Of a stretch of DNA of 64,000 bases, positions 5,645-56,541 are shown piece after piece. The position numbers were made by a program, and so were the translations under genes. The notes under the pieces were generated by a model that did no database searches, was not told the DNA's origin, and saw only the letters and a program-made list of their open reading frames with translations. This DNA is from Actinostola sp. cb2023 (lineage: Eukaryota; Cnidaria; Anthozoa; Actiniaria; Actinostolidae): contig JAUJYZ010000411.1 of the NCBI GenBank assembly GCA_033675265.1, forward strand, positions 247,733 to 311,732, written 5' to 3'. Positions within the stretch are counted from its first letter, which is position 1. Each line of letters begins with the position of its first letter.

Positions 5645-7506
5645 TTGTTAGAGAAGATAACAATAATGGAAAAGAGCGAAAAACCATTAAAACTTAGAGG
5701 GGAAAAATCAAGGAGCAAAGATAAGAGAGATGACGTTGAATGTACATGTATAGTGCATCAACCTCATTACAGAGTATGTAGTAAACCAACCTTTATTTCT
5801 GAAATAAGTTTTAAAACAATCCAAGAAAGCGCCCGAATTAGACAATGTCAAGAAAACCCAAGTGATCCTTGTGAAGAAAACCTTTCAAATGCCCTGTCAA
5901 GTGAAAGCTGTGCTGAGCTGTTGCTCCATTACTCGGAGTTTAAAGCAAAAGTCTGTGATGGACAGCTAGGCAAAACAGCTCAGTTCTGGCTGAAATATAT
6001 GGAGAAGGTGTGGCTGATTCTGCGGTTTCTAAGAGCAACGAAAGAGAACAACCTTGAGCTACATATTGCCAGCCTTGAACAGATGGCTAGTCTATTTTTG
6101 CATTGGACCACCCAAACTACTCTCGGTATACCACAGTCTACTTGCTGATCCTTCTGAATCTTGAAGAAACACACCCCGGGGCCAAGGAATTATTATCAAG
6201 TAATGGTTTCAGTGTCAATCGATCTGATGTTCCCTCTAGTAGAAATGCTGTTGATATCACAATAGAACAGACGATCAATCGCCATGTGAAGTCCCATGGT
6301 GGCATTATAGGCTTTAGCAGAAACCACTTGGCGTACTATTGATGGTGCAAGACCAGACATGCTCGAGCGAGTTACATTCAAGCTACGAGGGAGATGGTTG
6401 ACATGGATAACTCAGAGTGTACAAAGCACAAGGAGCTAAGATCATCCCAGATCATGAAATCCGAAGAAGACGATTGTAATGTCGCCAATGCTATCAATAA
6501 TTTCATCAATCCGTTCGTGGTAGGAGAACCAGATGCACTTACTGCATCTCTTCGGGAGCCCCAGCTCCCAGTGATGTTGAGCATGACCTTCTAACTGTAG
6601 ACGAAGTGGGAACGAAAGCTCACACTGCTTTCGTCAATGACCGTCTGGTTGAACAAGAAATAAGCTTTTATTCATCAATCAAGGCAAAACCTTAAAACAT
6701 TTGCTAGCTTGGTAAAATCTACCAAGGTTACTGATGGCAAGTCCAAGAAGACAAAGCAAATAACCGCTGATAGAAATGTGTTCGGCCAGCTTGTGATGCT
6801 AGCTCTTGATTATGACCTTGATATGAAAAGAGTACTAAGCTACCCATTAGGCCCTGTGCCGTGGGCGCTAGCGACGTCAGATGGTATGCCTGTTAATATG
6901 GAGAAGGCAAAGCTGCTTCATTTTCTAGAGGGAAAGAACCAGGTGCAAAGGCCAACCACAGGAGATATATTCTATGTTATAGATGGTAATGCTCTTCTTC
7001 AGGCGATGGTGGCTATTCCGAGCACATTTGGAGATCTTGCAGACAGCGTGTTTGAGCAGCTTCCGAAAGTACACCGCGTTGACTTTGTGACTGACTCATA
7101 CCACCCTTTATCAATTAAGGAAGTTGAGCGATCTCGCAGGGGCACGTCTGCACCACATCTTGTCAGAGGGCCGTTGACTAAAGTACCCAGAGACTGGAAG
7201 AAGTTTCTATCGAATGGGGAGAATAAGCGACGCCTGTCTAACTTTCTTCTTGAAGAGTGGAAGAACGACAGATTTGCTGAGAAACTCCAGGGTAGAGAAG
7301 TGGTTGTTGTCTGCGAAGAGAAAGCAGTTTGTCTCACAGGTGTAAATGGTCAGCAAACAGTGTCAGAGGAGATGTTGGAGCTTTGCTCCACACAAGAAGA
7401 GGGTGATACCAAGATGATTCTCCACTGTCATCATAATGCAGCTAACACGCCAGAAACCTCTACAATAATAGTGAGATCCCCAGACACAGATGTAAATATC
7501 ACATAA
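5645..7506 (+). pseudogene. PIN/FEN-like nuclease-type gene of an unnamed mobile family (broken)
   Basis: At least four frame segments belong to one protein family that I have seen repeatedly in cnidarian and other invertebrate gene sets, without a name. They are 5645-6100 (Cys-rich start, then QFWLKYMEKVWLILRFLRA), 6103-6330 (DHPNYSRYTTVY, VDITIEQTINRHVKSHGG), 6350-6590 (EMVDMDNSECTKHKELRSSQ) and the long block 6709-7506. In the last block the acidic residues D92 (VIDGNALLQAM), D129 (DFVTDSY), E230/E231-D233 (QEEGDT) and D259/D261 (RSPDTDV) have the order and spacing of a PIN/FEN-like metal-dependent nuclease. This functional reading is my inference. The protein stops just after SPDTDV, where the family normally continues. 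Frameshifts near 6100, 6330 and 6560-6700 make it non-functional. Confidence 0.65.
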
Positions 7507-15729: not shown

Positions 15730-16087
15730 TGATGATAACGATGATAATAATGATAATGATAATAATGATGATAATGATGATAATAATGATAATGATGATA
15801 GTATCGTTGAGCACGAAAGTATTTTGTTTCACTAATTAAGAATCAGTATAAGTAGGAATCCACTCATTAAATATTCAGTCAACCACAGTACCTTGAGCAT
15901 AGAGTTAAGTAAGAGACCATCGAGAAAGTGTAATAACACATTTATAATCATGTATTTCAGAATTTAAGTAATGTATAGTTTCATGTATTTTGTACGTTCA
16001 GATTTCGAACCCTACTCGTTTGAAAACATGGTTTCTGAATCCTGACTGTTTACTGTGGTTGATTCAATGATAATGATGATAATGATG

Positions 16088-16122
<35 letters not shown>

Positions 16123-16195
16123 ATAATGATAATGATATTAATAATAATAATATTAATAATAACAATAACAACAATAACAATAATAACAATAAGGC
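15730..16195. repeat. GATAAT microsatellites around a short insert
   Basis: Runs of GATGATAAT/GATAAT occur at about 15725-15800 and 16066-16195. The roughly 270 bp between them contains TCAACCACAGTA near 15878 and its inverse TACTGTGGTTGA near 16051. The whole block splits the Gypsy integrase and replaces the second half of its zinc finger. Confidence 0.6.
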
Positions 16196-17150
16196 ATGAT
16201 GTCGAAAACAGAATTGCACCCCTCAGGGAAACATTAGCGTTGGCGAACCATTTACATTTTGGGCCGTGGACTACATGGGACCCATACCAGAAACCAGCCG
16301 AGGGAACAAACACCTCCTGGTAGTGGTCGACCACTACACTAAATGGTGTGAGGCCTTCCCTACCAAAAAGCGAGCACCGTCGCGCCGCTCTCTCGTTTTG
16401 GGCCGCCTGTCGTGTTACATTCCGATCAAGGAGCGAATTTCGAGAGCAACTTAATTCACAGTATTTGTGACGTAATGGGGATAACAAAAACTCGAACCAC
16501 GGCTTACCACCCCCAAGGGGATGGCCAGACAGAGCGGCAAAACAGAACTCTGCAGAATATATTGTCGGTATTGGTATCCAGTCGTAAGGACAATTGGGAC
16601 CTATGGATCGATAGTGCGGTTTACGCGTATAACACCAGCAGACTTGATTCGCTAGGGATTTCGCAATATGAAGTAGTTTTCGGACGACCACCCCGATTAC
16701 CATTTGATCTAGAGATAGGATTGCCTCTCGCAAACCCCATGATTCACGACGGTTTTACGTGACATCAGGAAAGTCGCAACTGACAATCTCGAGAAAGTCG
16801 CGGAGCACCGGGCAGCACAAAATCGGGCCAACCAAAGTGCAAATCCTTGGCAACCATTCCTCGTCGGCCAATCGGTCATGCTCAGAAGGCCTAAAGGGTG
16901 GAAGCGTGGGAGCAACTGGGTGGGGCCTTTCGAAATTACGGACCGCATGGGGATTAATTACAAGACAAGGTCAAAGGAAAATAAGGAAAAGGTTGTACAT
17001 CACAATCACCTTAAACTTAGTCATATTCCATTTCGGCAGGGACAGGTATTCTACCCAGCAAGGGGGCACTGTGACTACGAGTTCGTTGATTGCCCACCTG
17101 ACCCGACGGAGCAACCAGTTCAGGTGGGAGGGGCGAGCCCCCACGGTTGA
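16196..17150 (+). pseudogene. Gypsy retrotransposon integrase core and C-terminal domain
   Basis: Blocks in order are DYMGPIPETSRGNKHLLVVV with DHYTKWCEAFP (first catalytic Asp), VLHSDQGANFES (second Asp), AYHPQGDGQTERQNRTLQNI (catalytic Glu), then YAYNTSRLDSLGISQYEVVF. The C-terminal part reads VMLRRPKGWKRGSNWVGPFE and ends KEKVVHHNHLKLS, the usual Gypsy integrase tail. Integrase joins the reverse-transcribed DNA to the genome. Frameshifts lie between AFPTK and LHSDQG (about 16370-16410) and at about 16760. The element is a 3' fragment; no protease or RT is present upstream. Confidence 0.85.
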
Positions 17151-17243
17151 GGCAGAATATCCATCCCCCAGTCGGATACGCTTACGACCAATAATGCTGA
17201 TAGATTTGTGTTCACGGAACGAGAACATTTTAAGGTGGAGGGA

Positions 17244-17484
17244 TAGTGCAGCGAATGTAGAAAACCCACAAATCGGGCTATTGAGATTATATAGCTGACG
17301 CATATCCGTCAACAGATGATCTGTAAAGCATAATACTTGTGTTTATCTTAAGGCACACCTTGTATGACTAAGTACTCAGATATGCTTGTAAATGAGTAAT
17401 ATGAACTGGTATTGAAATAAAGTCAGTGTGAGCACGCTACAAGGGAAACAACCGTTTACCTTGATTCAGAGCCACTCACGTTAC
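17244..17484 (+). repeat. Probable 3' LTR of the Gypsy element
   Basis: A purine-rich AAGGTGGAGGGA (17232-17243) looks like a polypurine tract. The following 240 bp contain GAAATAAAG near 17414 as a possible polyadenylation signal and end near CACTCACGTTACA. Exact borders are uncertain because no 5' LTR is present for comparison. Confidence 0.4.
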
Positions 17485-18970: not shown

Positions 18971-21618
18971 TGCCGTATCATAAAAACAATCGCTTTAATG
19001 TGGCAGACTTTGTAAAGAGAAAACGCGAAGTTCTTCAGCAGCTGACTGAACACAAAATAAATGCATTGTCTGCTGTTAAGACCCAGTAGCAAAAAATCAG
19101 AAGATTGAAAGACAAGGTAAGAAAGAAACTTTTGAATATATCTATGTTCAGCTATTAGTGTGACAGCTCTCGAAACGTAAACAAAACCGGAGCACGTTTC
19201 GTTTAACTCATATTTTATCGTCATTTGGATCATCATTCAGTCTTCAAAGACATTTCGATTAATCTCTGTTTTGTTCATCGAAGCCTGATATTAAGATGGT
19301 TATTTACAACAGATCTAGAGCAGGAATATTCTGAACAATATAACTTATAGTTAATTTTTGATCTCGATCTAATTTCTCCCTACCGCTCTCATATAATTAC
19401 TGTAGACAGTTTATGAGAATCTAGATATCGATCATTTCTAGCGGGTTAAAGAAGTTCAGCATTTTTAAATTATTCGAAGCTGGTTATTTATATTTTACAC
19501 TTGATCTCCAGGAAAATATCCTAAGAGAATCAGCGGACAAACTGATACCTAAAACACCACCTTCCTCAAAGGTAAGCATAAGTTAAATATTTTTTTGCTT
19601 GAATACTGGATATTTTGGTTGGGTGTTACTTTTATGATTTTCCTCCTGGTGCTTGGCTATTTTGATAATAGTATGTTGTCAAATATATTTAGGCTGTGAA
19701 AAGAGTGAGATCCCTACAGCATTGAATAGTCCCGCATGCACCAAAAAAACACTGCAGAGAAGGAACAGAGAAGGAACATTCCAATTTGCTCAAAAGATGG
19801 AGCTACACAATCTAACAAAAGGCCAGCTCTAGATGGACTGTTTGATACATTACAAAAACGATGTAAGATTAATGAACTAGGGGGTTACATATTGTCTAAT
19901 GAAAAAAATTACTAAATATATCATAAATAACATACAAAAAAAGGGAAAAGATAACTTTGCCAAATCACATCAAAATGTATTGAGGAGCATAGCTGCATAC
20001 TACTGTGCTGGTGTTATGGGTAAAAGAAAATACCAGGCTGTACGGCTTGCTACATCCATGACCTCAAGTAACCGCAAAAGGGGTGGAAAAACTCGTATGA
20101 AATACATGGGGGGTTTCGTAATCCCTCAATTACTAACATATAATAATTTGATGAAGGAGATTAATGCTATAGATATTGGTAAAGTATACTCAGTCCAAGA
20201 ATTTTCATCAAGTATTGATGAAAGTAATGGTAGTTTCCGTGACCTTACAGAGTATCTTCCAAGACTTGCATACTTCTATTTAAGTAATTCCAGGAAAAGT
20301 AGTCTTAAATGGTTTGGGCAGACTGAGGGTACATTAAAAATGGCCTTTGGTGGGGATGGTTGCCCTTTTGGAAAACATGAATCTGCCTGTTCATTTTTTA
20401 TCAGTTTCCTCAATACAGGGCGGAGGGTAGCATCCTGCAATGATAATTTCTTAGTTTTTGGAGCCAACTGTGAGGAAACCTCTATGACAGTTAGGAAGTA
20501 TGTTCAGTCAGTCTGCAAACAGATTGTAGACATAGAAAGCAAAGTTTTTCAAGTACAGGGTTTACATGTAACATTTAAATTTTGTGAGCTCCCCAATGAC
20601 ATGAAGATGCTAGCTATGCTTGGGGGAGAGTTGTCTAATTCTGCAAGATATTTCTCTTCATTTGGTAATGTTATAAGTTCAGACAGTGGTCAGACAGTGA
20701 CATATAACTTTTGGCCAGGGTCAAAATAAATGGAGGCCATGGAATTATGAACAGAGGGTAAGTGTAGTTGAACGTGTATAGTGCTTCAAAAAAAATTGTA
20801 GCAACAAAACAGGTTAGTGAACAAACTAAAAGAACTAACATCACAGAATACATTGCTAAACAAAAGAGCCGCCAAGAATTTCTTCCTCTTATAGGGAGAT
20901 TGATTGATAGTGCTCATGTTGAGCCATTACATCTGAAGAATAATGCATGGCAATATTTCTTTAAGGCTTTGTTAAAGGAAGCACTTGCAAAGTCAATGCT
21001 CAAGCCTACATACAAGATTTTCTCTGATATCCCTCAAGACCTCTGTATTGCTAGAGTGGTAACTGTTTTGCAGTTTGAAGTGAAAGCAACACGCCTGGCT
21101 AAGTAAGTAAAGCAATGGTATAATGAAACACAATGCAAAAAGGGGGACATTCAATATAGGTTTACTGGGAAGGAGTCCAGATTGTTTTGTCATAACTCCA
21201 TGAGACTCATCAGGTATCCGAGTCATGATGGTGACAGTAGGAAACAAAGGCAGACAGTTCTAGCATTAGTGTATATAGGAATCAGGTTGAGGGATTGCTG
21301 CTCAATTTTCAACAGGCTTGACATCAATGACGCTGATCTAACTAAGCTTGAGACTATAGCCAGGGAATACTGTTGTTCCTACCCTATCCTATCAACCCAA
21401 CTATCTGGACTATGGGTCATGTTCTACCTGTGCATGCAAAGAATGTATACAATATTTACAAACAAGGGATCCTTACAGTTACAATGGAAGGTAGGGAAGC
21501 AAAACATGTTGTTTTACATAGACTGAGCCAAAATTCTACATTTCACACAAGGTGGAAAGACATATTCAGACATGAATTTATGTTAATGTGGTTGCCTGAA
21601 CACAACCATGTACCATGC
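18971..21618 (+). pseudogene. Multi-exon DDE-transposase-like gene of an unnamed cnidarian family (5' part)
   Basis: A first exon starts MPYHKNNRFNVADFVKRKRE and ends at a GTAAGA donor (19118). A second short exon (ENILRESADKLIPKTPPSSK, 19512-19571) is followed by GTAAGC, and the main part runs from about 19690. The long block 19899-20729 holds AFGGDGCPFGKHESACSFF and ELPNDMKMLAMLGGELSNSA, later AHVEPLHLKNNAW and EGREAKHVVLHRLS. The spacing GGDG...NDMK...GREAKH suggests an RNase H-fold DDE transposase; that is inference from motif layout. In-frame stops (a TAG in exon 1, 20728, about 20778, 21104) and a shift near 21380 show decay. The gene is cut at 21618 by a retroelement and continues at 23915. 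Confidence 0.6.
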
Positions 21619-23909
21619 TGTTTCGCTCAAGCACGAAAGAATGCAATTAACATAAGTATATTTAACAGAGTTCGTTCTGAATATTAATCAGTCAGTCAGT
21701 TGTAAGCTCAAGTCAGCCACCGGGTAAGTTATGAGATTTCATAGCATTTACGTTTTGCCAGGTATTATCTAACTCATAGTTATTTGTAGATTTCGAACCT
21801 CCTACCAAGCTTGTGTTATGATGTTAAATATTAAAAGCCGTTTGAACAGTGGTTAAACTGACATGACTGACTCAACATTCGAAATCCGCGCTTGTTAAAA
21901 GGACCACTTGGCACTCTTGTAGTACATCTGCCTAGGAGAAGATCGTTGGGACAAAGATAAGTGCCATCTGTAACTGTTGTTGGGTTTCTGCCGATAGGTC
22001 TTTCATTGACCAGGTTAGCTGACTTGAGCTTACAACTGACTGACTGATTAATATTCAGAACGAACTCTGTTAAATATACTTATGTTAATTGCATTTTTTC
22101 GTGCTTGAGCGAAACATTCCCCTCTTCTGATGAAATGTGTACTATGGTTATGTAATATACTGGAAACTAAAGTATTAAAGTTCTCAGCTACAAAACTACA
22201 ATGTTCATTGACTACATAATGTTCAACTGTCCATTCTTGCTTTTCATCCATCAGCTGGCACTATAACTACGAGTCTCTGTACTGCTCGCAAAATATAAAT
22301 AGGGGCTCGTCCTTCAGACTTGTACATCACTTCTACTTTGCGCACCTTTCCATTGCTGTCTGGATAAACTTTAGTTATTCTTCCGAGTTTCCATTTTCCT
22401 CTTAACTGATTAGAATCCTGTATCAGAACAATGTCGTCTACCATGATGTTTCTGTGAGTGGTGTGCCACTTTTGTCTCACAATGAGACTAGGGAAGAAAT
22501 CCCTTGTCCAATGTTTCCAGAAGGCATCGATTACGCGTTGAACAAATTCAAATTGAAGTCTTGGGTTAGCGGTTTCTTTATAAGGACCACTTGGCACTCT
22601 TGTAGTACATCTGCCTAGGAGAAGATCGTTGGGACAAAGATAAGTGCTATATGTAACTGTTGTTGGGTTTCTGCCAATAGGTCTTTCATTGACCAGGCTA
22701 GCCGCTTCAAAGCACACTGTTTGCAACTCTGAGAATGTCATTACGTTGTCTCCAATGGCAACGGTCAATCCTTTCTTTACTGATTTAATCCTTGCTGACA
22801 GACTGTCTGTACTTACATCAATAGTTGCCATCACTGAATCTGGAAGTTTTCCTTTGTATAGCTTCTGGTTTGTTGGCCATTCACTTTCCACTTCTTCGAG
22901 GAATTGAGGACCTTTCTGCCAAACACTGTTTTCTCCAATTTCACTTGGCGACTTTCCTCTTGTGAGATAATCTGCGACATTCAGCTCACCTTGCACCCAG
23001 TACCAGTCGTTACGGTCTGTTCCTTCTTGTATTTCACCAACTCGAGTACCAGCAAAAGTATTGAACCCATATGATTATTTCTGCACCATCGCTTGTACAA
23101 TCTGTGAATCAACGATATGGTATATCTTCGAGAACAATAATCTTGACTCCTTCTCTATGAATTCTTTTAAACGCTTGTTAAGTACTGCTCCACAAAGTTC
23201 AATTCGGTCGATTGACATTCGTTTTACAGGGGCAAGACGATTCTTTGATAAGATGAGGTTACTGTTGAATTTGCCATCGAGAGTCTTCCATCTTGCATAC
23301 GCGCATGCTCCATATGCGTTGTTTGATGCGTCACTGAAGATAACAAGGTCTGGTGGGCCTTCTACATTAGTTGGCTTGATAGTTCTTCTGAAGGTGGTCT
23401 TTTCCATGTCGAAGAGATCTTTGAAAAACTGTATCCATTCCTTTTGACGTTCTTCAGGGATCGGATCGTCCCAGTCGAGATGTGGTTGTTCGACCCAGAG
23501 CTTTCTCATCATAATCTTCGCCCTGACGGTAAATGGACCTGCTAGGCCGAGGGGATCATAAATGCCGTTGATCTGCGACAGAACCATCCGCTTTGTCAGA
23601 TGCTTCGGAACTCTTTCACCAATTTCATATAATGCTAGATCCGGCTCGAGACGCAATTTATTTCTTCTAGGTGAGAAATTTAACTTTACCTTGAACAGAA
23701 GAAGATCTTCGATTGTGTTCCAAAGTACTCCAAGTCAGTCTATGGGACTTCACTGCAACTACTTTGTTGTTAGGTAGATTGACAGGATCCTTGATCCAAG
23801 GGTAGTGTGCGGTCCAGATGTTTTCTTTACTGTTAAAGCTAAGATTTTGCTCTATCAGCTTTAGTTCATGCTCCTCTTGAAGAGTGCAGTATTTGGTACC
23901 AAGAGAACA
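21619..23909 (-). mobile_element. Rearranged BEL/Pao insertion with 5-bp CATGC duplication
   Basis: CATGC flanks the insert on both sides (21614-21618, 23910-23914). The left end is an LTR in plus orientation (TGTTTCGCTCAAGCACG..., 21619 to about 21897). Next comes a minus-oriented 120-bp integrase piece (about 21899-22020) that duplicates 22580-22703, then a minus-oriented partial LTR (22018-22116) with its polypurine tract AGAAGAGGGGA, then pol on the minus strand up to 23909. The right end therefore lies inside pol, yet both outer ends read inward as TGTT. This looks like the product of autointegration or template switching before insertion. Confidence 0.75.
22244..23909 (-). pseudogene. 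BEL/Pao pol remnant
   Basis: Read on the minus strand, three segments appear. First is the RT-proximal segment with SHRLTWSTLEHN (23667-23909). Second is an A17/RNase H region with INGIYDPLGLAGPFTVRAKI, VIFSDASNNAYGACAYARW and RIELCGAVL (23075-23656). Third is an integrase C-terminal part with ELQTVCFEAASLVNERPIGR, PNDLLLGRCTTRVPSG and DDIVLIQDSNQLRGKWKLGR (22244-22996). These are the standard BEL/Pao blocks in order. RT proper and the integrase catalytic core are deleted, and there are frameshifts near 23660 and 23040. Not functional. Confidence 0.8.
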
Positions 23910-29349: not shown

Positions 29350-29962
29350 GCACGTTACAATAAACACAAAGGTGGATCAGAAGTAAACGTCGTTTGCTAG
29401 AGGAGGGAGTGAGTGTTCACTTCTTGGACAATCACACCGACTACCACAGTGCGTGGAGCTACGTAAATAAAGAAGACCACGATACACTGCATAGTCTTGG
29501 TCATCCTGACTTAAGAGGACCGCCAAGAACGCACCAAGCTAGCTCCACCGTGCACTCACGGCGTCGACTATCACAGATGGAAGATGATTGTTCTGATGAC
29601 GACGTAACCACAAGTCAAATCGGTCCGCGAAAGAAGAAGAAAAGAGTGTCAGCGTTTGAACTGTCCGAAATCATTGTACAGAAAGGTATCAAGACCCGAT
29701 TGCAATTGCTAGTTCTCGCCGATGAACAAAAAAAGGAAGGGAAAACTGATGTTGCTGAATTCATTGTAAATCGTGGATCTAGAATAGTATCGGAGGTCCT
29801 GAACACAGCGTGGGAAATGAAGCAGTCAAGAGAGACTCTTGAGCGCCGAAGCAAAACAAGATTAGAGCTATTGTACGAGGCAAAGGATGGAGATTGTGAG
29901 CTCGGATGTAACGGACAGTGGCTCGAGTGCGCACTGCAGCTGCATAATAACGTAATTGATGT
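29350..29962 (+). pseudogene. HUH/SF3 Rep-like gene, 5' part
   Basis: A degenerate HxH motif lies just upstream of the ATG at 29394 in another frame. It is followed in frame by the YHSAWSYVNKED block, which fits the Tyr/Lys motif 3 of HUH endonucleases, then a linker rich in Asp and Lys, and TAWEMKQSRETLERRSKTRL. The second copy at 55155-56541 matches it segment by segment. HUH-SF3 proteins nick and unwind single-stranded replication origins in parvovirus- and CRESS-type viruses and related mobile elements. Reading continues to base 29962, where a 7.6-kb element interrupts it; the helicase part resumes at 37577. It is broken by a shift near 29375 and by the insertion. Confidence 0.65.
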
Positions 29963-29982
29963 CTCAGCGCATGTAAGGCATG

Positions 29983-31047
29983 GTTTTTTCGAAAAATTCC
30001 CCAAATTAAAGAGAAAAAATATTTTGAAACCACGCACTTGTACAATCTCAATCAAACTTGGCATGGTTCTTCTATTAAATAAGGGCTACGTTTTTACGCA
30101 TTTGGTTTCCTTGGAAACGGTCACGTGACTACGCTAATTAACATAAATGAATGAAAAAAGTATGCTGTCTTTGCAAGCTCTGCGCACATTGTTAGAACAC
30201 TCAATTATCTTAATAAAAGGAACTATCTAATAGATGAAGTACTAAAATGTATCACTCTAATTGGAAAACTCGCATTTTATGTACTATTAACACAAGAGAT
30301 CAGTTCGAAATTGGATTTTTGGTCTATCGGGCAAATTTCGAACTTTGCGAGTATTTATCGACCTAAATATTGAAGTTTTCCATCATATCCAATTAGGTCT
30401 AGTAAATACACACACAAACTAACTTTAAACCGAGTAAATAATATCTAGATTTATTAGATAGGTATATATTCAACGCCACTTAGTTCACTAACCATTTGCA
30501 AAGAATCGGAATGGATCGATTGTGCAGGCCCGCGTACAATAGGTAAGCGGTTGTTCTATGGAATTAAGTTTCCATGGATACAAGGATTGGAAGTTCAACA
30601 AAATGGCGGCCTCAATCGATGCAGAATGCTTGTTTGTGAATGTTTTTCGCCAATAATCTTCCTCAGAAAGAGTCCACAGAACACAATATTACTTGAAATG
30701 GCTTTGGAAAGGTCTATCAGAACTTGTAGTGCTATTATATTGTGAGTAATTCATTGATTTACGACAAAAATTCATACTTTGTCAGCTCAACTACGTCTAT
30801 AGTAATATACTTGTTGTTGCACTTCTACTATTTTTGCCTGCCTGTTAGTTGTATTACGAAATTTCTAATAAAATCATTATCTCTGACATCTTCTGCGCAT
30901 GTGTATTATGGGTTAGTTTAAGCGGGAGATTTGAAGAAGTTATAGTTGTGGAATTAACGAGCGTTTCTCTATCGACATTTTCGACGTATTTTAAGCTATA
31001 TTATCGTTGTTTGCGTACTGTATTCCTATACAAGGGTATATTCTGAG
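29983..31047. other. 5' region of the 7.6-kb element
   Basis: About 1 kb separates the left TIR from the ATG of the gene. A GTGAGT near 30740 could be the donor of an untranslated leader exon. Short ORFs here have no family features. Confidence 0.35.
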
Positions 31048-34000
31048 ATGGCAGGGACGTTTTTATGTCCGAATACTTGTGGTTTTGCTAGAGTAGTGGC
31101 TCTAGAGGTTGCAAGAGGGACGGTGCTGCAGAGAGATAAAGACGAGAGTAGCAACAAACATCAAGCTCGTTTGAAACTCGAACAGTACAAGCAATTCAAA
31201 GGCCACTTTTCTGGGGATGCTACAGTGGATAAGTTTTCAATCGAGTACTTAAAATTCCATAAGAGGCTCCCAGGATTGAAACAAGCATTCAACAAGTGGA
31301 ATTCTAGAAAATCTACTGAAAAGTCCAAATACATGGATATATTTTCCCTGCAGAACTGGAAGAAACTTACTGAAGCACGAAAGAAAGAACACAGCTTGGC
31401 AAACTGCAAAGGTTGTGCTGTGAGGTATGCAGAAATCCAGGCTTACTTTCCTGTAAAATCTGCCATACTTAAGGGGAAAGCAAAACAAAATCCTGTGTTC
31501 GCTGCCGAAAGTGAAGCCCAAAAGTTGAAGACCAAATCACCCCCAGTCAAACCACTTTTAAAAGACATAACAAACACTGCAAAGGCAATTTACAATAAGG
31601 TGGATTCTGTGTTCCAGCAAAGCTTTAGTACAAGCTTTGCTGAAGCTTTGTCAAAAGTGACAGAACTAAATTTACAACACAATACAATAAATGAGAGACG
31701 TAAAAGAAGAAGGAAGCTATATCAAAACTCAAAGGAAAATATCGAGAAGCAAATGGAAGAGACTGCAATGTTAAGGTGAGTGCAATACATGAAGGTAGAG
31801 TGCAGACAATCTATATTTGTAGAGGTAATCATACGGTTTCGGTTACGGTTTGGAAATAATATGCACGAATGTGTTTTTCAAAGAGTATCAAAATTGCACG
31901 AGCGCGTAGGGCGAGTGCAATTTGAGCTCTTTGAAAAACACACGAATTAATAATATTCATGAAAAAAAAGTAATTTGCACTGCAGTGCATATTAAAGGTA
32001 ATTTGCACTGCAGTGCAAATTACTTTTCAACTGCACTACTGCAAGCCAATCAGAATCGAGTATTTTTTTCATGTATATTATTAAGCGTGAAACAGTACTT
32101 AAACTATAGCAGTGCAGTAAAAGCACTAAACAATAGAAAATAGAAATAACACAATTCAGTGAGCTATTTAGTTGTAGTGCTATTTCACGATTAACTAGCT
32201 ACATAAAAATGTACGTCTTCACTCATAATACAAAATAATACAATCAAAAATACAATCAATAATAATATTATAATAAATTATAATGATCAATAATTATTAT
32301 AACAATCACAAATCAAACAAATGTTGTCAGTAAATTAATTAATTTATTATGCTGAATTCACATTACGTTCACATACACTGTACCATACATAATTTTGGTA
32401 TCATCATATTTTATTATCAGATGTTATGGCGGTGGGCAATCACTAAGTGCATGGCAACGTAGTCGACTGGCAAAATCCTTTGAAACAAAGGGATCTGCAA
32501 AACGGAGAAGAGAGGAAGTAATTAGTAATGAATTGGAGCCCAATAGAAAAGTTGTAAAGAAAGATCATACTGGGAGCATTGACAACATTGAATGGGACAA
32601 AAAGGCATTAAAGTTAGAAGTTGAAGGCTTTGAAGACAACCATATCATCAACTGGAAGAGGTTGGCTGTGAAATACAATGTCTGCAACAAGGCAGGGCAG
32701 CTTGCTTGCAATGGAGGCCAGATTGTTAAAGAGTGGCTAGTTTCACATGGTGTTAATGTAACTCGCTTTGAAACAAAACGAAAACAGTCCACCAATGTAA
32801 GTCCCATCATCAGACGAAAGAAAAGAAAAGGTCGAGGAGGAGAAATAAGTGTTCCTACTGAGGTGTCTCCCCAAAAACTCAAAGAGCAGTTGAAAGAAAA
32901 GATCAAATCTGGGGAGTACACAGTTGGTGAAATGATTGTACCCCAAAAGGTAATATAAAATGCTGACAATAATATTAGAGTGCTTGTGATAAACCCGTGA
33001 AACAAAGTGTACTAATTAGAGTGCAATAGTCAGATAAACACAATAGAAAACAAAAGAATTAGAGTGAAGTAGTGCTAAATATAATGCTAAAGTGTATTTC
33101 ACGGGTTTATGAAAACCACTCTATTAATACATCTGACTAAATTGCATGCACGCTAAACATAATGTGCAGTTCCATAAAATATCTGCAGTCTGTTATGGTT
33201 CAAATTTCCTCACTGAACTCAACGAGTGCTGATAACACCACGTACACTGTACATGCACAGTACATGTAACATGTATTAATGATTTACATTTTTTTCTTCC
33301 CAGTATGAGAAACTTATTCTAACCAAGGATCTCAAGATAGAGAAAATTGAATTTGAAACTGAAGGCAGAAAGACACCTCTTATGGATATAAGAAAAAACA
33401 TGCTAAAAAAGCACAAAGAGTATATGAGAGATCAAAGTGACAGCTACTACAATGAAATGAATGAATATGATATCAAAGAAAAGCTAAAAGAGTTAAACGA
33501 ATTACCTGAAAACAAGAACAATCAACCCCTTGATTTAGAGCAAATACGAAAAAAACTCCAAACCCTGGAAAGAACAAGAAATCTACTTGTCTGGCTTGAC
33601 AATTCAACCGTTGCCAACCATGGGTATCTTGTTTGCTTAGTCACCTGTCTTTATGATCCTGCAGTATTCTATACAGATGCAGAGTACAGAATTAAGACAG
33701 GGAAAACAGTTAATATCCAGAACATAATTGAACAGCCTGAGCTCCATTTCATTGCACGATGTGGCAGTTCAGACAGTGAGCTTCTGCTCTACTCAGAAAC
33801 AAGGTTAGCTTGTGTTCAAGAACTTAAACATGACTGTGCTCAATACACTGACAAACTTAGATTTTGCCATGGAGACAGCCCACTAAGATCATTTGAGGCA
33901 GGCCAACAGAAGGGTGGCAACTACTTCTGTGCCACTTGTGATGTACATTATGACATGACATATGAAATAGACCATGTCCTCAATAAGAAACCGATTACAC

Positions 34001-35988
34001 TACAGACTAGACAAGATTGTATCTTACAAGGTGCAGTTGCAAGGAGACACTCAATCCAGTTGAAAGCCAAGCCATTGAAAGCTTTAACAAAGCAGCAACT
34101 GGAGGAGGAATTAGCTTCCCGACGAATATATGAGGGCAAAACTAAGCAAGAGCTACAGGATCTGCTTACCAGAGAAATGCATGGCATGCAACGTGTACCA
34201 GCCCTTATAATGAATAATCCAAAGGCAAATCTTAAAGACATTGGCCTTGGTGATTATGAAATATTGCCAGCAGAACCATTGCATGACATTGGTCACCACA
34301 TAGAGAACTTCCTGATTGAGTACCCAAGGCACCTGTCAACTGCAGAGAGTACACTGCTCGACGAGACAGTAGAGCTGTGTATTGGTGGCAAAGACAGCAA
34401 GAGATGTGTCGATTACCGTACAACACTAGTAAAAACAGCAGGAGTTGCTCACCAATCAGGCATAATGTCAAAGGAAGCACTTTTGGCAATCGATTCGTTA
34501 GTAGAAATACAACGCATCCTGTACTCAGATGAACATAATCGATCACCTGCACTCATACTACGCTACTACAACCAGTGCTGGCTACATTCCATGACTCTGA
34601 GAAACTGCATTGTCAAGCAACCAAAAAAGCTAACCCTCAGGAAAATGTTTGGAGTATATTTCCACAATCTGTCATCACATGCTGGTCTTATGCTACGAAT
34701 CATATCTGGTCAAGCAGCAAATGCAGAGGGACAAGAACGCATATTCAATCACATCAAGAGAATAACCAAACACACAAGCAACTACCACCCTGGACAGATA
34801 ATTCCAAACTTGTTTATTCGTTTACAAGCTGAAAAGGAGATGGGATTACAAGGAGACGATGCTGGCCGTCAACAAGCCCACATCAGCAAGCTTGCTCAGT
34901 GTTTACCAGAACGCTCAAACACATGTATTCCAATATCAATGATCAAGAAGAACAGCAGAGAATGGCAAGCACACCTCCAGCAAATTAGTGACTACCTTGT
35001 TGAGGGTGAGGGTGTCTGGTGGATGAAGGAAGATGAGATGGTAGAATTCTATGATGTAACCAAGCATCCAACTCAACAACAATTTGGCCCACAGCTTCAC
35101 CATTTCAGATCGAGCAATTTACAACACGAGGCTACCCATCTTGACCAGTGCTGGGCACAATGCATTGATGAGAATGTTATCATCCCAACTCATCTGATAC
35201 GAGTAGACCAAGATAATGGAAGTACACATAAAATATTCACTGACTACCTAGGAGATGAGTTACCTGCAGCAACTCCAGAACCTGAACATGTACATGTAGA
35301 TACACCAGTAGACACTGTGTCACTTGAACTTCACGAAGTTTCAGAAGCCCAAAGCAGTACTGACACCCAGAGCACAGAAATACACACAACAGACAATCTA
35401 CTAGAGAACCAGGATGAGGAAGAGGAGGAAGAGGAAGAGACAATTTTAAGTATCTTGCCAGCAGAGGACGAATTAATAAATGTCTGCGAGCCTATTGAGT
35501 GTACAAGTACATGTACAGATGTTCAGGACGTGACTGAAGCAATTAGTTCAATTCAGCCAACCGTTAATTCAGCAGCTGGACAATCACTGACAGATACTAA
35601 TACTGATACTTCTAATTATGAAATACAGACTCACCTGGGAAAGGCATTGCAAGTTGTGATAGGCAATACTAAAGAAGTGAAAGAACTTGACCAAAAGCAT
35701 CATCAGCTGAAATTGTTGCAAAAACAAAATAGTAAGAACAAAAATTACAAACACTTGGAGGACAAATATAAAGATGACATTGCCCACATTCAAGTTAGGG
35801 TATTAGCAGAGAGTAGAACCCTCCAATCAGATCTAATAACATGGGAGCAAGGATATATACTAAAGAATGACCTCAAAGCACCATCATCTGCTCAAATAAA
35901 TTCTGACAAAGATGCTTCAATTCTACTTAAGAAACTGAAGTACGCTAAAGCTCTTCTGAAAGAATGGAACATTAACTTCCATAATTAA
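31048..35988 (+). CDS. Intact three-exon gene of an unnamed mobile family, probable transposase (1313 aa)
   Basis: Exons 31048-31775, 32421-32949 and 33304-35988 join in frame through GT-AG introns of 645 and 354 bp with no stop. Exon 1 is Lys/Arg-rich with a Cys pair. Exon 2 has YGGGQSLSAWQRSRLAKSFE and a possible HTH near NWKRLAVKYNV. Exon 3 holds a CxxC with following His/Asp (residues 627-643), a SAP-like segment LTKQQLEEELASRR...GKTKQELQDLL (about 678-709), PLHDIGHHIE (D747), and NAEGQERIFNHIKR (E894/E897). A Glu-rich run and a coiled coil near the C-terminus follow. I recognise the family from many copies in cnidarians, without a name. The D...E layout and position inside TIRs suggest an RNase H-like transposase; that is inference. 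Start choice: first in-frame ATG. Confidence 0.75.
31865..31947. repeat. Foldback repeat in intron 1 with the GCACGA/GAGTGC core
   Basis: Arms GTGTTTTTCAAAGAG and CTCTTTGAAAAACAC surround AAAATTGCACGAGC, GCGTAGG, GCGAGTGCAATTT. The core is nearly identical to the one at 15205 (inverted) and close to that at 9060. It lies wholly inside intron 1 and leaves the splice sites intact. Confidence 0.8.
32977..33122. mobile_element. MITE in intron 2 (AGAGTG...CCCGTGAAA type)
   Basis: AGAGTGCTTGTGATAAACCC at the left is matched by GGGTTTATGAAAACCACTCT at the right. It is related in design to the AGTGATTGCAATAAAC family but has its own interior (TAGAGTGCAATAGTC). It is contained within intron 2. Confidence 0.7.
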
Positions 35989-36436
35989 CTGTAGTGTAAA
36001 TATGACAGAATACTGTAAATGCTCAAATAAGTTTATAATATAATTGACCCATAGGTTTTAAGTATTTTATTATTATTTATTTTATTCTCATATTAGAGTG
36101 CATTTAGAAAAGCGTGGAAACTGAATAACTAATAACATGTAACCACATGTAAATAGCACGTCTAATGATACAAGAGAAAAAAAGAGAAAAAACATAATTT
36201 AGCACTAATACAATGTAGTTAGTGACTAATAGTCAAAACAAAACAAAAGAAAACAATGGAATTAGTGTCTAGTAATACAATGTATCTACTTGGCTAATAC
36301 ATGTATCTGTTTCACGGGTTACATGTAAGTGCCATCACTCTGCCATCACTCATGTTTAGATATATAGCTTAGATAGTTTAGACAGCATTTAAACAGGGAA
36401 GAGCCATTTTTCAACATGGATCTGTTTAATAAAACC

Positions 36437-36513
<77 letters not shown>

Positions 36514-37576
36514 AGTTAGTACTTAATTTCACACTTTTTTAAATTGCACTCTACATGTATTTAGTTAATTGTAAATATATACATTGTATATAGGTTATTA
36601 ATCTTAGCTGTACATAAAATAATGTTGTTAACCGCCACAGACAATTAGTGGAGATTGGCGCTATACAAATGTCATAAATGTATTATACCCTGATTATCTG
36701 TAAATTATACAACAGTTACTGTAAAATAATGATTGTAGAAACAGTGAGGAGACAAATACATATTGTTTAAAAAAATTGCAAATAATGTAAATGAATGCTA
36801 TATTTAATAGTGGTTAAAAATTATTTATTTACTTTAAACAGTAAATGAAAGTTTTTCAGTGCATCACAATATAACGCTTAATGTAAATAATTAGGTGATA
36901 AATACAAATCACCTACAGACTAACCTTATTATATAGCATTGGAAGTTATTCATCATACACTACAGTACATGTATACTGATTGTTCATACACTGTACTAAA
37001 CAAGCACCATGCAAAATCTGCAGCTGAAATATACAATAGCGAGTGTATTTTTACGTGTAATAATAGCTTACATGTAAGAACTTATAAAGATTAATTAATA
37101 TGAAGCCTCAAAGTTCAAAGCAGTGCATACGTGTATAGTAAAGTGAAAAGATAACTTGAACGAGACAAATCATAAAATATAGAGCTCCAACAAATAGAGA
37201 CAAAAATCTGAAAGATAGATTCATCATTTCATACGACAAAAGTAGAAAATAGACAGCTTCACTGGTTTACATTTGCAAATTATTTATGCAAGTACGAATA
37301 CATACCTTTCAAAATAATCCACACCAGAACGGCAGAAGTCTCCAGAACTCTCAAGGCAGAAGAAATTTATATAATACCTTCCATTTTGCGATTAAAACGA
37401 TCGAAATAAAGCAGTATTTCACGAAAACATAATCTCCCCGTGATCCCAACGAGACGCCATATTTAATTTCAATACTAGCGTTCGTTGCTAAGACAACCTA
37501 GGTCCCAGGACCCCGAGAGAAAAATCATCGCTGGGGGCCAAAATTGAAACTGAAGCCGTGCCTTAGATGCGCTGAG
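35989..37576. other. 3' region of the 7.6-kb element
   Basis: AT-rich and non-coding. It includes a TTA microsatellite (36438-36511), a partial MITE near 36285-36350 (GTTTCACGGGTTACATG...CATCACTC), and GGAGATTGGCGCTATACAAA near 36650, a motif common at LINE/SINE 3' ends. It closes with the right TIR. Confidence 0.5.
36438..36511. repeat. (TTA)n microsatellite
   Basis: About 24 uninterrupted TTA repeats inside the 7.6-kb element, downstream of its gene. Confidence 0.95.
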
Positions 37577-37700
37577 GTCTCTAAGTTTCAGCAATCAGTC
37601 GGATTGTTGTTAGACAAAGGACGCGGTAAATATCGCAATATCATGATAATTGGACCATGCGACACCGGCAAAACGTTTATATTGAACCCGTTTTGGGTTG
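37577..37700 (+). pseudogene. HUH/SF3 Rep-like gene, helicase Walker A part
   Basis: The frame continues from 29962 after the 7.6-kb insertion and includes KYRNIMIIGPCDTGKTFILN, a P-loop with the GxxxxGKT pattern of SF3 helicases, preceded by the usual KG(R/H)GKYRN. Homology ends after ILNPF at about 37695. The rest of the helicase domain, present in the second copy near 55155-55540, is missing, and a long G-rich tract follows. Confidence 0.7.
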
Positions 37701-39790: not shown

Positions 39791-40864
39791 TCAATACTTT
39801 GTACGTTGACCCTTGTTCTTTATGATCAAATCAATGCGCTTAGTAACACTTGAAATGGTATTATCTATCTGTGCTTGATAATTACTTAACATTAGCGATC
39901 TTATACGATTTGCGAAATCGTCAACTGATTCATATGCTATTTTCAAATCTAATGCTTGTTGCCTCAAATCCTTTAAAAAAATATCTATAGGATTGAGATC
40001 TGGGCTACGAGGAGGTATTGCAAACATTTTTGCACAAATCGATTTCATAGCTGCCTTGGCTTGCGCACAGTTTTGACTAGGATCACCATCTTGTACAAAA
40101 ATCCGCGAACGACACTTCTTACAGAGACGAAAAGCCTTAACAAAATGTTTTAAAATAAACTTTGTAAAGTTTTCTCCGTTTAGTTTTTCATACCTTTCAC
40201 ATAAAACAACTCCTTCGTTGTATGAAATGCCTACAAAAAAATTAACAACTCGTCCACCGGAGCCAACGTGCGATCCTTTCGCTGTACAATACTCAGAAAG
40301 TCCTTCTGATCTTAATCTCCATATCAGACTATCCGGCGCTCTTGCTTGGTCAAACAGGTTATACTTGTGGTAAAAGCTAACACCATCAAAGAAATATCCA
40401 ACTTTTTTAGTCCAAAAGTCTGTTGGGTAGTTTCTTTTAAAATTCCTTGCAAATGCCAGCCTGCGTTGTAGATCTTTTCTGGTCAATATACCTTTTTTTC
40501 GGGCTTGTACATACCGGTATCCCAGTCTATTGAGATGCCTTTGCATTGTCCTCACTGATACTGCACTAGATGGAATATTCATCTCTACCAGTACTCGTTT
40601 AGCTGTAAAATTATCTTCCCGCTTTCGTAGCGTGTCAATACAACGCTTAATTCGTCACTCTTCGCGCGCATGGAATTTGCGTTTCTTTCCTGGTTTCTTC
40701 TTTATCTCGGTGTGCATGTGTTTTTTAGGCGATAAAAGATATCTATACACCGTTGAACGCGATACCCCACATTTGACAGCGATTTTTTTAAATGATAATG
40801 TGCTCTGAGTGTGAAGACATTGAACCAATGCCATGGTTTCCGGAGATATGACTTTTCGTGCCAT
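39791..40864 (-). pseudogene. Tc1/mariner-like transposase, copy A
   Basis: From 40864 downward the frame gives an N-terminal HTH (SFKKIAVKCGVSRSTVYRYL), a stop/shift near 40655, then a linker and the catalytic domain from 40582. It has YFFDGVSFYHKYN (first Asp), IFVQDGDPSQNCAQAKAA (second Asp) and AIPPRSPDLNPIDIFLKDLR. Thirty-four residues separate the second Asp from the final acidic position, which here is D where the related copy at 53609 has E (SPDLNPIEN). A deletion of about nine bases after LNPI seems to have removed the usual EN-F residues. The protein cut and pasted a TA-flanked element; this copy is dead. Its TIRs are not clear. Confidence 0.8.
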
Positions 40865-53608: not shown

Positions 53609-54706
53609 ATGGTTAAGACAAGGACTATTTGCCCGATAACTAAAGCAAAGATGCAGATGGCGAAGGAAAGTGGTCACCTAACCGTCAAACAAATAATGCA
53701 TCGTTTTGTGGAGTGTCAAGATCTACTGTCTTTCGAAGTGTTCGTGCTACTAAAACTCATCTATCTATTGGTCATGTATCAAAGAACGTGGGAAGGCCTC
53801 GGAGGATAAATCAACGAAATGAAAGGCAATTGAAACGCTGTATTTATCACTTAAGGCGAAGCGAAGGACAGTTCACAACTAAAAGGCTGTTGATAGAGAT
53901 GGGATTTGACAAAGAAAACATATCAGCATCCACCATAACTCGACAGTTACGAAGAAGGGGATATTATTACCTTCAGGCCAGAAAAAAAGGAATGATGACT
54001 GAAGCAGACCGCATCAAATGGTTAGCTTTCGCAAAAAAAAATTAGAAGGAATTACACCCCTGATATATGGAAGAATCATATTGTTTTTTTTTTTTTGGAT
54101 GGAGTTAGCTTTTATCATAAGTACAATCCAATGGATCAAGCCAGGCCACCAAAGGCCAGGATTTGGCGGAAGAAAAAAGAGGGATTGTCGCATTGCTGTA
54201 CAGGGAAGGGCTCGCATATGGGTTCGGGTGGACGAGTGCTAAAGTTGATGGTAGGCATCTCATATGGTAACGGAGTTGTATTGTGTGAACAGTATGAAAA
54301 ACTTGATGGTCAAAAGTTTCACGACTTCGTATTAGATCATTTCAACGATGCTTTTGAGAAGAGCCACAAAGGAAATTATCGCATTTTCGTGCAAGATGGA
54401 GACCCATGTCAGAATAGTGCCAAGGCTAAGGCAGCCTTCGTTTCCATTAATGCAACACTGCTGTCGATCCCCCCTAGAAGTCCAGATCTAAACCCAATAG
54501 AAAATCTATTTCACCTTGTCAAGAACGATCTGGCTAAACAAGCTGTTGAACAGCAAATTGTTCATGAAACCTTTCGAGAATTCGCCATTAGAGTGAAAAA
54601 GCTTATGCATGAAAAGATATAACAATGTCATTGATAACATCATTTCAAGTATGAATAAGCGACTTGATATGATAATAAAAAGTAAAGGTGATAGGACCAA
54701 ATACTA
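53609..54706 (+). pseudogene. Tc1/mariner-like transposase, copy B (DD34E)
   Basis: MVKTRTICPITKAKMQMAKE starts an HTH region that shifts frame near 53710 (GVSRSTVFRSVRATK). A second HTH and linker (GRPRRINQRNERQLKRCI, the GRPR motif) follow. The catalytic domain has LDGVSFYHKYN (first Asp, after an extra T in a T-run near 54085), IFVQDGDPCQNSAKAKAA (second Asp) and SIPPRSPDLNPIENLFHLV (Glu, 34 residues later). A one-base slip near 54615 hides the C-terminus, which ends KGDRTKY like copy A. Three small indels in an otherwise complete gene indicate fairly recent death. Transposase cuts at TA-flanked TIRs. Confidence 0.85.
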
Positions 54707-55154: not shown

Positions 55155-56541
55155 CTAAATGCCAAGAACAAGGGACGCGAAGCATTTGGGGCACGAAACG
55201 ATTGACTTCTGATCTTGAGGAGGAATCTGGTAATTGAAGCGATATACTTTCCATCGGACAGACATCATTTCACTCTCTCGCTCGTCAATAGCTCCATTCT
55301 TGATAAAGATAATGGGATTTTTTCCAGTGCAGAATATCGGTGTGTCTCTATCAAACACCAAATATTTAGCATAATGAGTTTTGGGGGCTGGCAAATGAAC
55401 CATCTGACCCTCCAGCATTAACAGTAAATCGCTCCATGCGATTACATGAAAGTCATTAAGGAAAATACACTCTGCATTCTCTGCACCAACCCAGGCACAC
55501 GATGAGCAAGCAGGATTACTAAATGTCCTATAGATGCTCGTCAAAAGGATTTAAAATGAAGGTCTTCGCACAGTTCGCAGGCCCAACGATCATTATGTTC
55601 CGGTATTTTCCGTGCCCCTTACACAAAAGCTCGCGAACAGCTCCTCCAAAAGACTGAACATTGATGCCATTGCGGTTAAGTACTTCGACAGCACAATTCA
55701 ACCACTGGCCTTCGCAGCCGCTAGCGCATTCTCCTAACGATGATTCTTCAAGGAGTTCAAGTCGTGTTTTCCTTGATCTTTCAAGATCACACTCTGCGGT
55801 TGTCATCTCCCACGCTGTATTTAACACTTCCGCAACGATTTTTGGCCCACAATTAACTATAAATTCAGCTATATCCGTCTTCCCTTCCTTCTTCTGCTGG
55901 TTTGCTAGGGCTAGCAACTCCATTCTGCTTTTGATCCCCTTTTCAATTATTATTTCTGATAATTGAAATGCAGTCAGGCGTCTTTTCTTAGCTGGACTGC
56001 AGCTATTTCGTTGGACCTGAACTGTTTCGGCAGCCACTACATCATCATCATCATCATCATCATCATCGCATACAGGGTCACCACTAGCGTTAGATGAACT
56101 AGAATCAGGCATCTCCAGTGTACGATTATTTTGCCTCTCCCTTCGTATATCCTGTGATGCTAGTGTTGCTTGCGACGTCCTTGGAGGTCTAACATTCCAT
56201 AGATCAGGGTGCCCAGCACTTTGAATAACATGTTCATCCTCTTTGGTAATGTATTTCCAAGCACTGTAGTAGTTGTGGTGAATGGTTGAGAAATGTACTG
56301 AAATTCCGTGCCTTTGTAGGAAAAAAAACGTTTTCGATGGTAACCACCTCTGTGTGCGGTTTAGTTTTATGGCCATATGGTAGTGTAAGCCACCGCATCT
56401 GTGCTGTTCACGACAACAACTCCATTGGACTATTTAATTCCCTCATGGCTGCTCGTAAAAGACCCACATACTGCTTCGGCAAACGCACGACGAGTTGGAA
56501 ATAACGATACATCGGCCTGACTGTATGTAACAAGATAGACT
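55155..56541 (-). pseudogene. HUH/SF3 Rep-like gene, copy 2
   Basis: Read on the minus strand, the copy starts near 56541 and has an intact HYHM (HUH) motif overlapping the ATG at 56376, then YYSAWKYITKED (Tyr/Lys nuclease motif). An Asp-run linker (DDDDDDDDD) follows, then a conserved middle region and an SF3 P-loop GPANCAKTF near 55575. After a shift at about 55540 come CAWVGAENAECIFLND (Walker B-like), LPAPKTHYAK and DRDTPIFCTGKN with a trailing CPKC. The P-loop Gly before Lys is replaced by Ala. An N-terminal frameshift upstream of HYHM and the break at 55540 make it a pseudogene. The architecture is that of rolling-circle initiators of small ssDNA viruses or derived mobile elements; which one cannot be decided here. 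Confidence 0.75.

Follow-up and report, generated by a model that had tools for sequence, protein, structure and literature searches.

The 64-kb window, the whole stretch of DNA analysed here, contains an element with terminal inverted repeats (TIRs) and one long, interrupted gene, raising the question of what kind of mobile DNA it is and whether its protein belongs to a named transposase superfamily. The precise ends, 2-bp target duplication, near-identical copies, conserved residues and confident RAG1-like model are best explained by an autonomous cut-and-paste DNA transposon that encodes a single protein, a DDE transposase with the fold of the CMC-Transib-RAG1 group, and represents a distinct lineage, a conclusion that we hold with high confidence.

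Element borders and target duplication

The element is bounded by 24-bp inverted repeats, identical at 21 of 24 positions and placed with their outer ends at 29963 and 37576 (Table 1), bearing out the TIRs and clean borders of the first-pass annotation. Their local inverted-repeat score is 18, and 500 shuffles reached no more than 14. Within the window, the end pattern CTCAG(N6)TAAGGC(N2)GG occurs twice, both times at an element end, with an expectation of 0 (100 shuffles).

The insertion splits a multicopy gene that has seven further full-length flank matches in the same genome (93-98%). Five of these were fetched as empty sites, and all five read GATGTCTCTAAG versus GATGT-element-GTCTCTAAG in the window; a 2-bp duplication (GT), not given in the first-pass annotation, is therefore directly shown. 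Uninterrupted protein relatives (P0089 and P0090) agree with this reading of the empty site. Relatives of the split gene produced weak Pfam matches only, to papillomavirus helicase (3.6e-04), Parvo_NS1 (0.011) and Rep (0.023).

Table 1. Coordinates of the element, its gene and its insertion site in the window
Feature	Position	Strand	Evidence
Complete DNA transposon, 7,614 bp	29963..37576	+	same end pair in 11 genome copies, including the window copy
5' terminal inverted repeat, CTCAGCGCATGTAAGGCATGGTTT	29963..29986	+	inverted-repeat alignment; end-pattern search
3' terminal inverted repeat, CTCAGCGCATCTAAGGCACGGCTT on the minus strand	37553..37576	-	inverted-repeat alignment; end-pattern search
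Target site duplication, left copy, GT (2 bp)	29961..29962	.	5/5 fetched empty sites
Target site duplication, right copy, GT (2 bp)	37577..37578	.	flank comparison; empty sites
Multicopy gene split by insertion, left part	29364..29962	+	
Multicopy gene split by insertion, right part (end approximate)	37579..37690	+	
Exon 1, residues 1-243, with H-x4-C-x2-C motif	31048..31775	+	joining; alignment to Nematostella P0012
Exon 2, residues 243-419	32421..32949	+	joining; alignment to Nematostella P0012
Exon 3, residues 420-1313: RNase H-like catalytic core, then acidic variable C-terminal tail	33304..35988	+	
D518, putative first catalytic Asp (WLD)	33598..33600	+	D in 65/69 sequences, 3 gaps, 1 E
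D610, putative second catalytic Asp (GDSP)	33874..33876	+	69/69 sequences
C628-x2-C631, C(2)C motif	33928..33939	+	69/69 and 68/69 sequences
SAP-like helix pair between C(2)C and LH	34087..34179	+	Pfam SAP in relatives; two helices in model
L745-H746, LH motif (PLHDIGHH)	34279..34284	+	H in 69/69; L in 63, M in 6
H873-x4-H878, H(4)H motif	34663..34680	+	each 67/69, 2 gaps
E897, putative catalytic Glu (AEGQE)	34735..34737	+	67/69, 2 gaps

Genomic copies and probable recent movement

Searching the genome of Actinostola sp. cb2023 (424 Mb, 1,594 contigs) with exon 3 returned at least 56 matches, comprising the window and about a dozen loci at identities of at least 95%, and others at 55-68%, about 38-48% and 33%. 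Twenty loci were fetched, 12 of which belong to the window's own family (family A). Both ends lie at the positions of the window copy in ten of these 12; the 5' part is missing from L018, and L020 runs out of the fetched stretch on its 5' side, with a matching end at C808:211754. The ten two-ended copies differ from the window copy by K2P distances of 0.0026 to 0.0161 (0.26–1.6%), and the reading frame is open to its end in three of the 11 copies including the window. The first-pass annotation had proposed recent movement and a genome-wide search for copies with similar ends and for empty sites; both were found, and the near-identical copies support its proposal: the element seems to have moved recently. 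The contrary outcome envisaged at first pass, the gene at conserved syntenic positions in related species without TIRs, was not seen within this genome, where the gene moves with its ends.

The 2-bp flanks match in the window copy and in seven of the ten other family-A copies; L009, L010 (one of the three with an open frame) and L015 have no matching duplication. L010, L015 and L016 (right flanks L029-L031) have a common 3' flank, 99.8-99.9% identical over the fetched 4 kb, and differing left flanks. A longer 3' end for these three copies was considered, and recombination or an assembly join was judged likelier. Either, if real, would explain two of the three mismatches (L010 and L015); that of L009 (CC/GG) is not explained by the shared 3' flank. 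L016 also carries an additional 774 bp after the place matching 37391, with complementary ends (TTAAGGTAATGCGATCGTGCA.. / ..TGCACGATCGCATTACC), probably a nested element.

More distant copies form subfamilies B and C, with ends of the same design as those of the window copy. Subfamily B copies are 99.2-99.5% identical to one another, and all three carry a 2-bp duplication. Identity in the close pair of subfamily C is 97.4-99.5%; L027 has matching 2-bp flanks, and L024 reads AA/TA, with no match at 2 bp and a possible 3-bp fit, TAA/TAA. The outer left end is missing from L025, and no end repeat was found in L028. Comparison of L024 with L027 over their open exon-3 frames gives a dN of 0.21 and a dS of 1.51, values that suggest purifying selection. 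Counts in near-identical pairs are too small to judge selection (L024/L025 dN/dS 1.30), and dS is saturated between subfamily A and B or C.

Transposase gene and candidate catalytic residues

Three exons join in frame through GT-AG introns into a 1,313-residue protein with no internal stop, as the first-pass annotation had proposed. Both exon joints lie in gap-free alignment to the Nematostella gene model LOC125563042 (P0012; 53% identity over 1,233 columns). Named protein relatives occur in Actinostola, Nematostella, Oculina, Paramuricea, Clytia, Branchiostoma and Ephydatia. The family, earlier described as a recurrent, unnamed cnidarian one, is thus recurrent in cnidarians but not confined to them, being present also in amphioxus and a freshwater sponge.

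Each intron contains an inverted-repeat stretch. In intron 1, a 265-bp stretch rich in inverted repeats (31819-32083), missing in copies L011 and L017, is possibly a nested miniature element. The 42-bp inverted repeat of intron 2 (32970-33129; 79% complementary, with CCCGTGAAA) is possibly another foldback element.

The predicted model consists of an RNase H-like core interrupted by a large helical insertion, in which lie the residues typical of the CMC-Transib-RAG1 group: C(2)C, LH and H(4)H (C209/C212, H327 and H454/H459 in exon-3 numbering). D518, D610 and E897 are the likely catalytic residues, their active-site geometry being read from model topology and residue spacing. The CxxC cluster and E894/E897 had been singled out in the first-pass annotation, and conservation (Table 1) upholds the CxxC pair and E897. 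Its other proposed centre for a fold search, D747, merely follows H746 of the LH motif and was rejected as catalytic; spacing to C(2)C gives D610 as the second Asp. D602 is likewise invariant (69/69) but lies 26, not 18, residues ahead of the Cys pair. For the H(4)H pair, H331/H332 of HDIGHH (exon-3 numbering) were rejected, and H454/H459 were preferred for their fitting distance from the Glu.

Between C(2)C and LH, the model contains helices at 263-272 and 281-292, forming a SAP-like insert. Pfam SAP was detected in 15 of 51 sequences at E<=1 (best 3.9e-06) and was not detected in the joined window protein; a family profile searched against PDB sequences found SAP-domain chains weakly (best E 0.013). 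The SAP-like segment noticed at first pass is supported by the relatives and the helix pair.

Predicted fold and relationship to named superfamilies

Fold searches with the predicted model placed RAG1, BbRAGL and HzTransib as best matches, above P element; this ranking cannot separate Transib from CMC, and absence from the fold lists (for example of KDZ and Academ) excludes nothing. The predicted core covers mouse RAG1 from about 460 to 1004, which we take to be the protein without its nonamer-binding domain, and the model of relative P0065 begins to match RAG1 near the exon 1/exon 2 joint. E897 lies in AEGQE and RAG1 E962 in SEGNE, in the latter as the second E; both segments have the form xEGxE. 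The structure prediction and fold search called for at first pass thus yielded a transposase fold, RAG1-like and not an unrelated one, and with the conserved D, D and E they support the DDE/RNase H-like transposase suggested there. Such a predicted fold, with residue roles assigned as above, and TIRs flanked by a fixed-length duplication seen against empty sites are as expected of a cut-and-paste DDE transposon.

Section 3.1 of Kojima's account of the CMCT clade gives its members C(2)C and H(3-4)H motifs in common, target duplications 2-5 bp long and, in most cases, 5'-CA..TG-3' termini (PMC12730594). In our family the C(2)C, LH and H(4)H residues are present in 67-69 of 69 sequences and the duplication is 2 bp; the termini are CTCAG..CTGAG, which the "in most cases" wording of that section does not exclude. 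The same section names C(2)C and H(4)H as common to RAG1, Transib and CMC (PMC12730594). The transposase group narrows to the CMC-Transib-RAG1 clade, and the protein works like, and is probably related to, such transposases. Sequence comparison gave no closer assignment. Pfam found no transposase domain in the joined protein, nor in 51 sequences among 25 of the 41 families listed; the Mirage model PF06869 (DUF1258) was absent from the joined-protein matches at E<=10 and from those 25 families. Searched against the PDB at E<=10, the A2 profile matched no chain of RAG1 or Transib, and another PDB sequence search likewise gave no lead. Because the CMCT motifs and duplication length are present but these sequence tests fail, the element is a distinct lineage and fits no named superfamily among those tested.

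Membership in a named CMC branch (animal CACTA/EnSpm, Mirage or Chapaev), as a divergent form that Repbase would file there, is possible but rather unlikely. All CMC motifs occur in order, and D-x-P at the second Asp, C(2)C, P-[LM]-H-[DN], H(3/4)H and the Glu are spaced nearly as in EnSpm of the same genome; the duplication length is within the CMC range. An animal CACTA element is reported with 2-bp TSDs (PMC6004678), and motifs and spacings of this kind were the grounds for assigning fungal Sly1-1 to CMC (PMC4592977). Against such a filing, PF02992 (Transposase_21; 107 places in the genome) and PF06918 (13 places) miss all 56 places of this family when the lists are compared by reading, and neither PF02992 nor an EnSpm profile matched the protein: hhalign scores against four EnSpm proteins stayed within those of 20 column shuffles. 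DUF1280 loci in the genome gave no lead to the family. The ends are not CAC..GTG, and the SAP-like insert is a further difference from CACTA/EnSpm. Chapaev, as characterized in PMC4079192, shares the C(2)C, LH and H(4)H motifs but differs in its 3-4 bp TSDs and CAC..GTG ends, versus 2 bp and CTCAG here.

That the element is sister to Transib/RAG1 proper and belongs to the line leading to RAG appears improbable. The fold matches and the resemblance of AEGQE to SEGNE speak for it, but the fold ranking does not distinguish Transib from CMC and the residue spacing fits EnSpm equally. Transib duplicates 5 bp, versus 2 bp here. There is no detectable sequence similarity to RAG1 or Transib by Pfam of the joined protein or PDB profile search, and the CTCAG ends and SAP-like insert set the element apart; the RAG1 model PF12940 matched neither the joined protein nor the genome, where the control also matched nowhere. 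A host or domesticated gene with incidental inverted repeats might be suspected from the uncharacterized or hypothetical status of relatives in Nematostella, Oculina, Clytia and Branchiostoma, but eleven copies with both ends in common, differing left flanks and mostly 2-bp TSDs, together with the empty sites, make it exceedingly improbable. A further reading, of somewhat less than even probability, is a superfamily-level RAG1-fold lineage with relatives in sponges, cnidarians and amphioxus: an independent branch, neither CACTA, Chapaev nor Transib, whose catalytic insertion contains a SAP-like domain and which has a 2-bp duplication and its own end code, CTCAG(N6)TAAGGC(N2)GG. In the literature covered, mostly listings and abstracts outside Repbase, no description naming the family was found, and "undescribed" applies within that scope.

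End code and short elements

The end pattern occurs at 675 places in the genome (328 + 347), with none for the reversed-pattern control (0 + 0). A separate scan of viral contigs gave 73 pattern matches and no relative. From the listed places, 17 facing end pairs were chosen, 14 delimiting short elements (674-1,756 bp) and three long ones. All 17 have a 2-bp duplication; one of these sites was already counted in subfamily B, the flanks of L048/L049 being those of L022. A rule of 3 or 4 bp was rejected (0/17 match at 3 bp; 1/17 also at 4 bp). Some short elements match long ones in the sequence just inside the ends (TAAGGCACGGGTC, shared with subfamily C, and nearly TATATTAAGGCCTGGGTCAA, shared with L026), and are therefore probably moved in trans.

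On the proposed mechanism, the protein would bind the CTCAG(N6)TAAGGC(N2)GG ends, cut them by two-metal chemistry and join them to the target at sites separated by two bases, and its relatives would move short elements bearing the same kind of ends.

Other features of the window

The transposase gene had been called the only undamaged transposon gene in the window. Recognized transposon pieces are indeed short or split ORFs, a statement that covers the 10 of 14 ORFs of at least 170 residues that were put through a Pfam scan; the remaining four include the three exons of the transposase gene. Pao-type retrotransposon pieces (Peptidase_A17, DUF5641) lie at 22244-23734 (-), and Tc1/mariner-like transposase ORFs (DDE_3) at 39791-40654 (-) and 54026-54622 (+). 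Five ORFs of 196-301 residues (6664-7506, 16050-16754, 16708-17298, 19881-20729 and 55528-56433) had no Pfam match at E<=0.01.

Significance

RAG1 rearranges antibody genes, and RAG1-type transposases are the origin of V(D)J recombination. The element would add a branch with a RAG1-type fold, and, if that branch is an independent one at superfamily level, would be of use in rooting the origin of RAG. Cutting and joining are directly testable, since the element has an open gene, clear ends, near-identical copies and empty sites. For annotation, proteins of this family appear as uncharacterized genes in several animal genomes, and the end pattern groups hundreds of matches, many on short gene-less elements.
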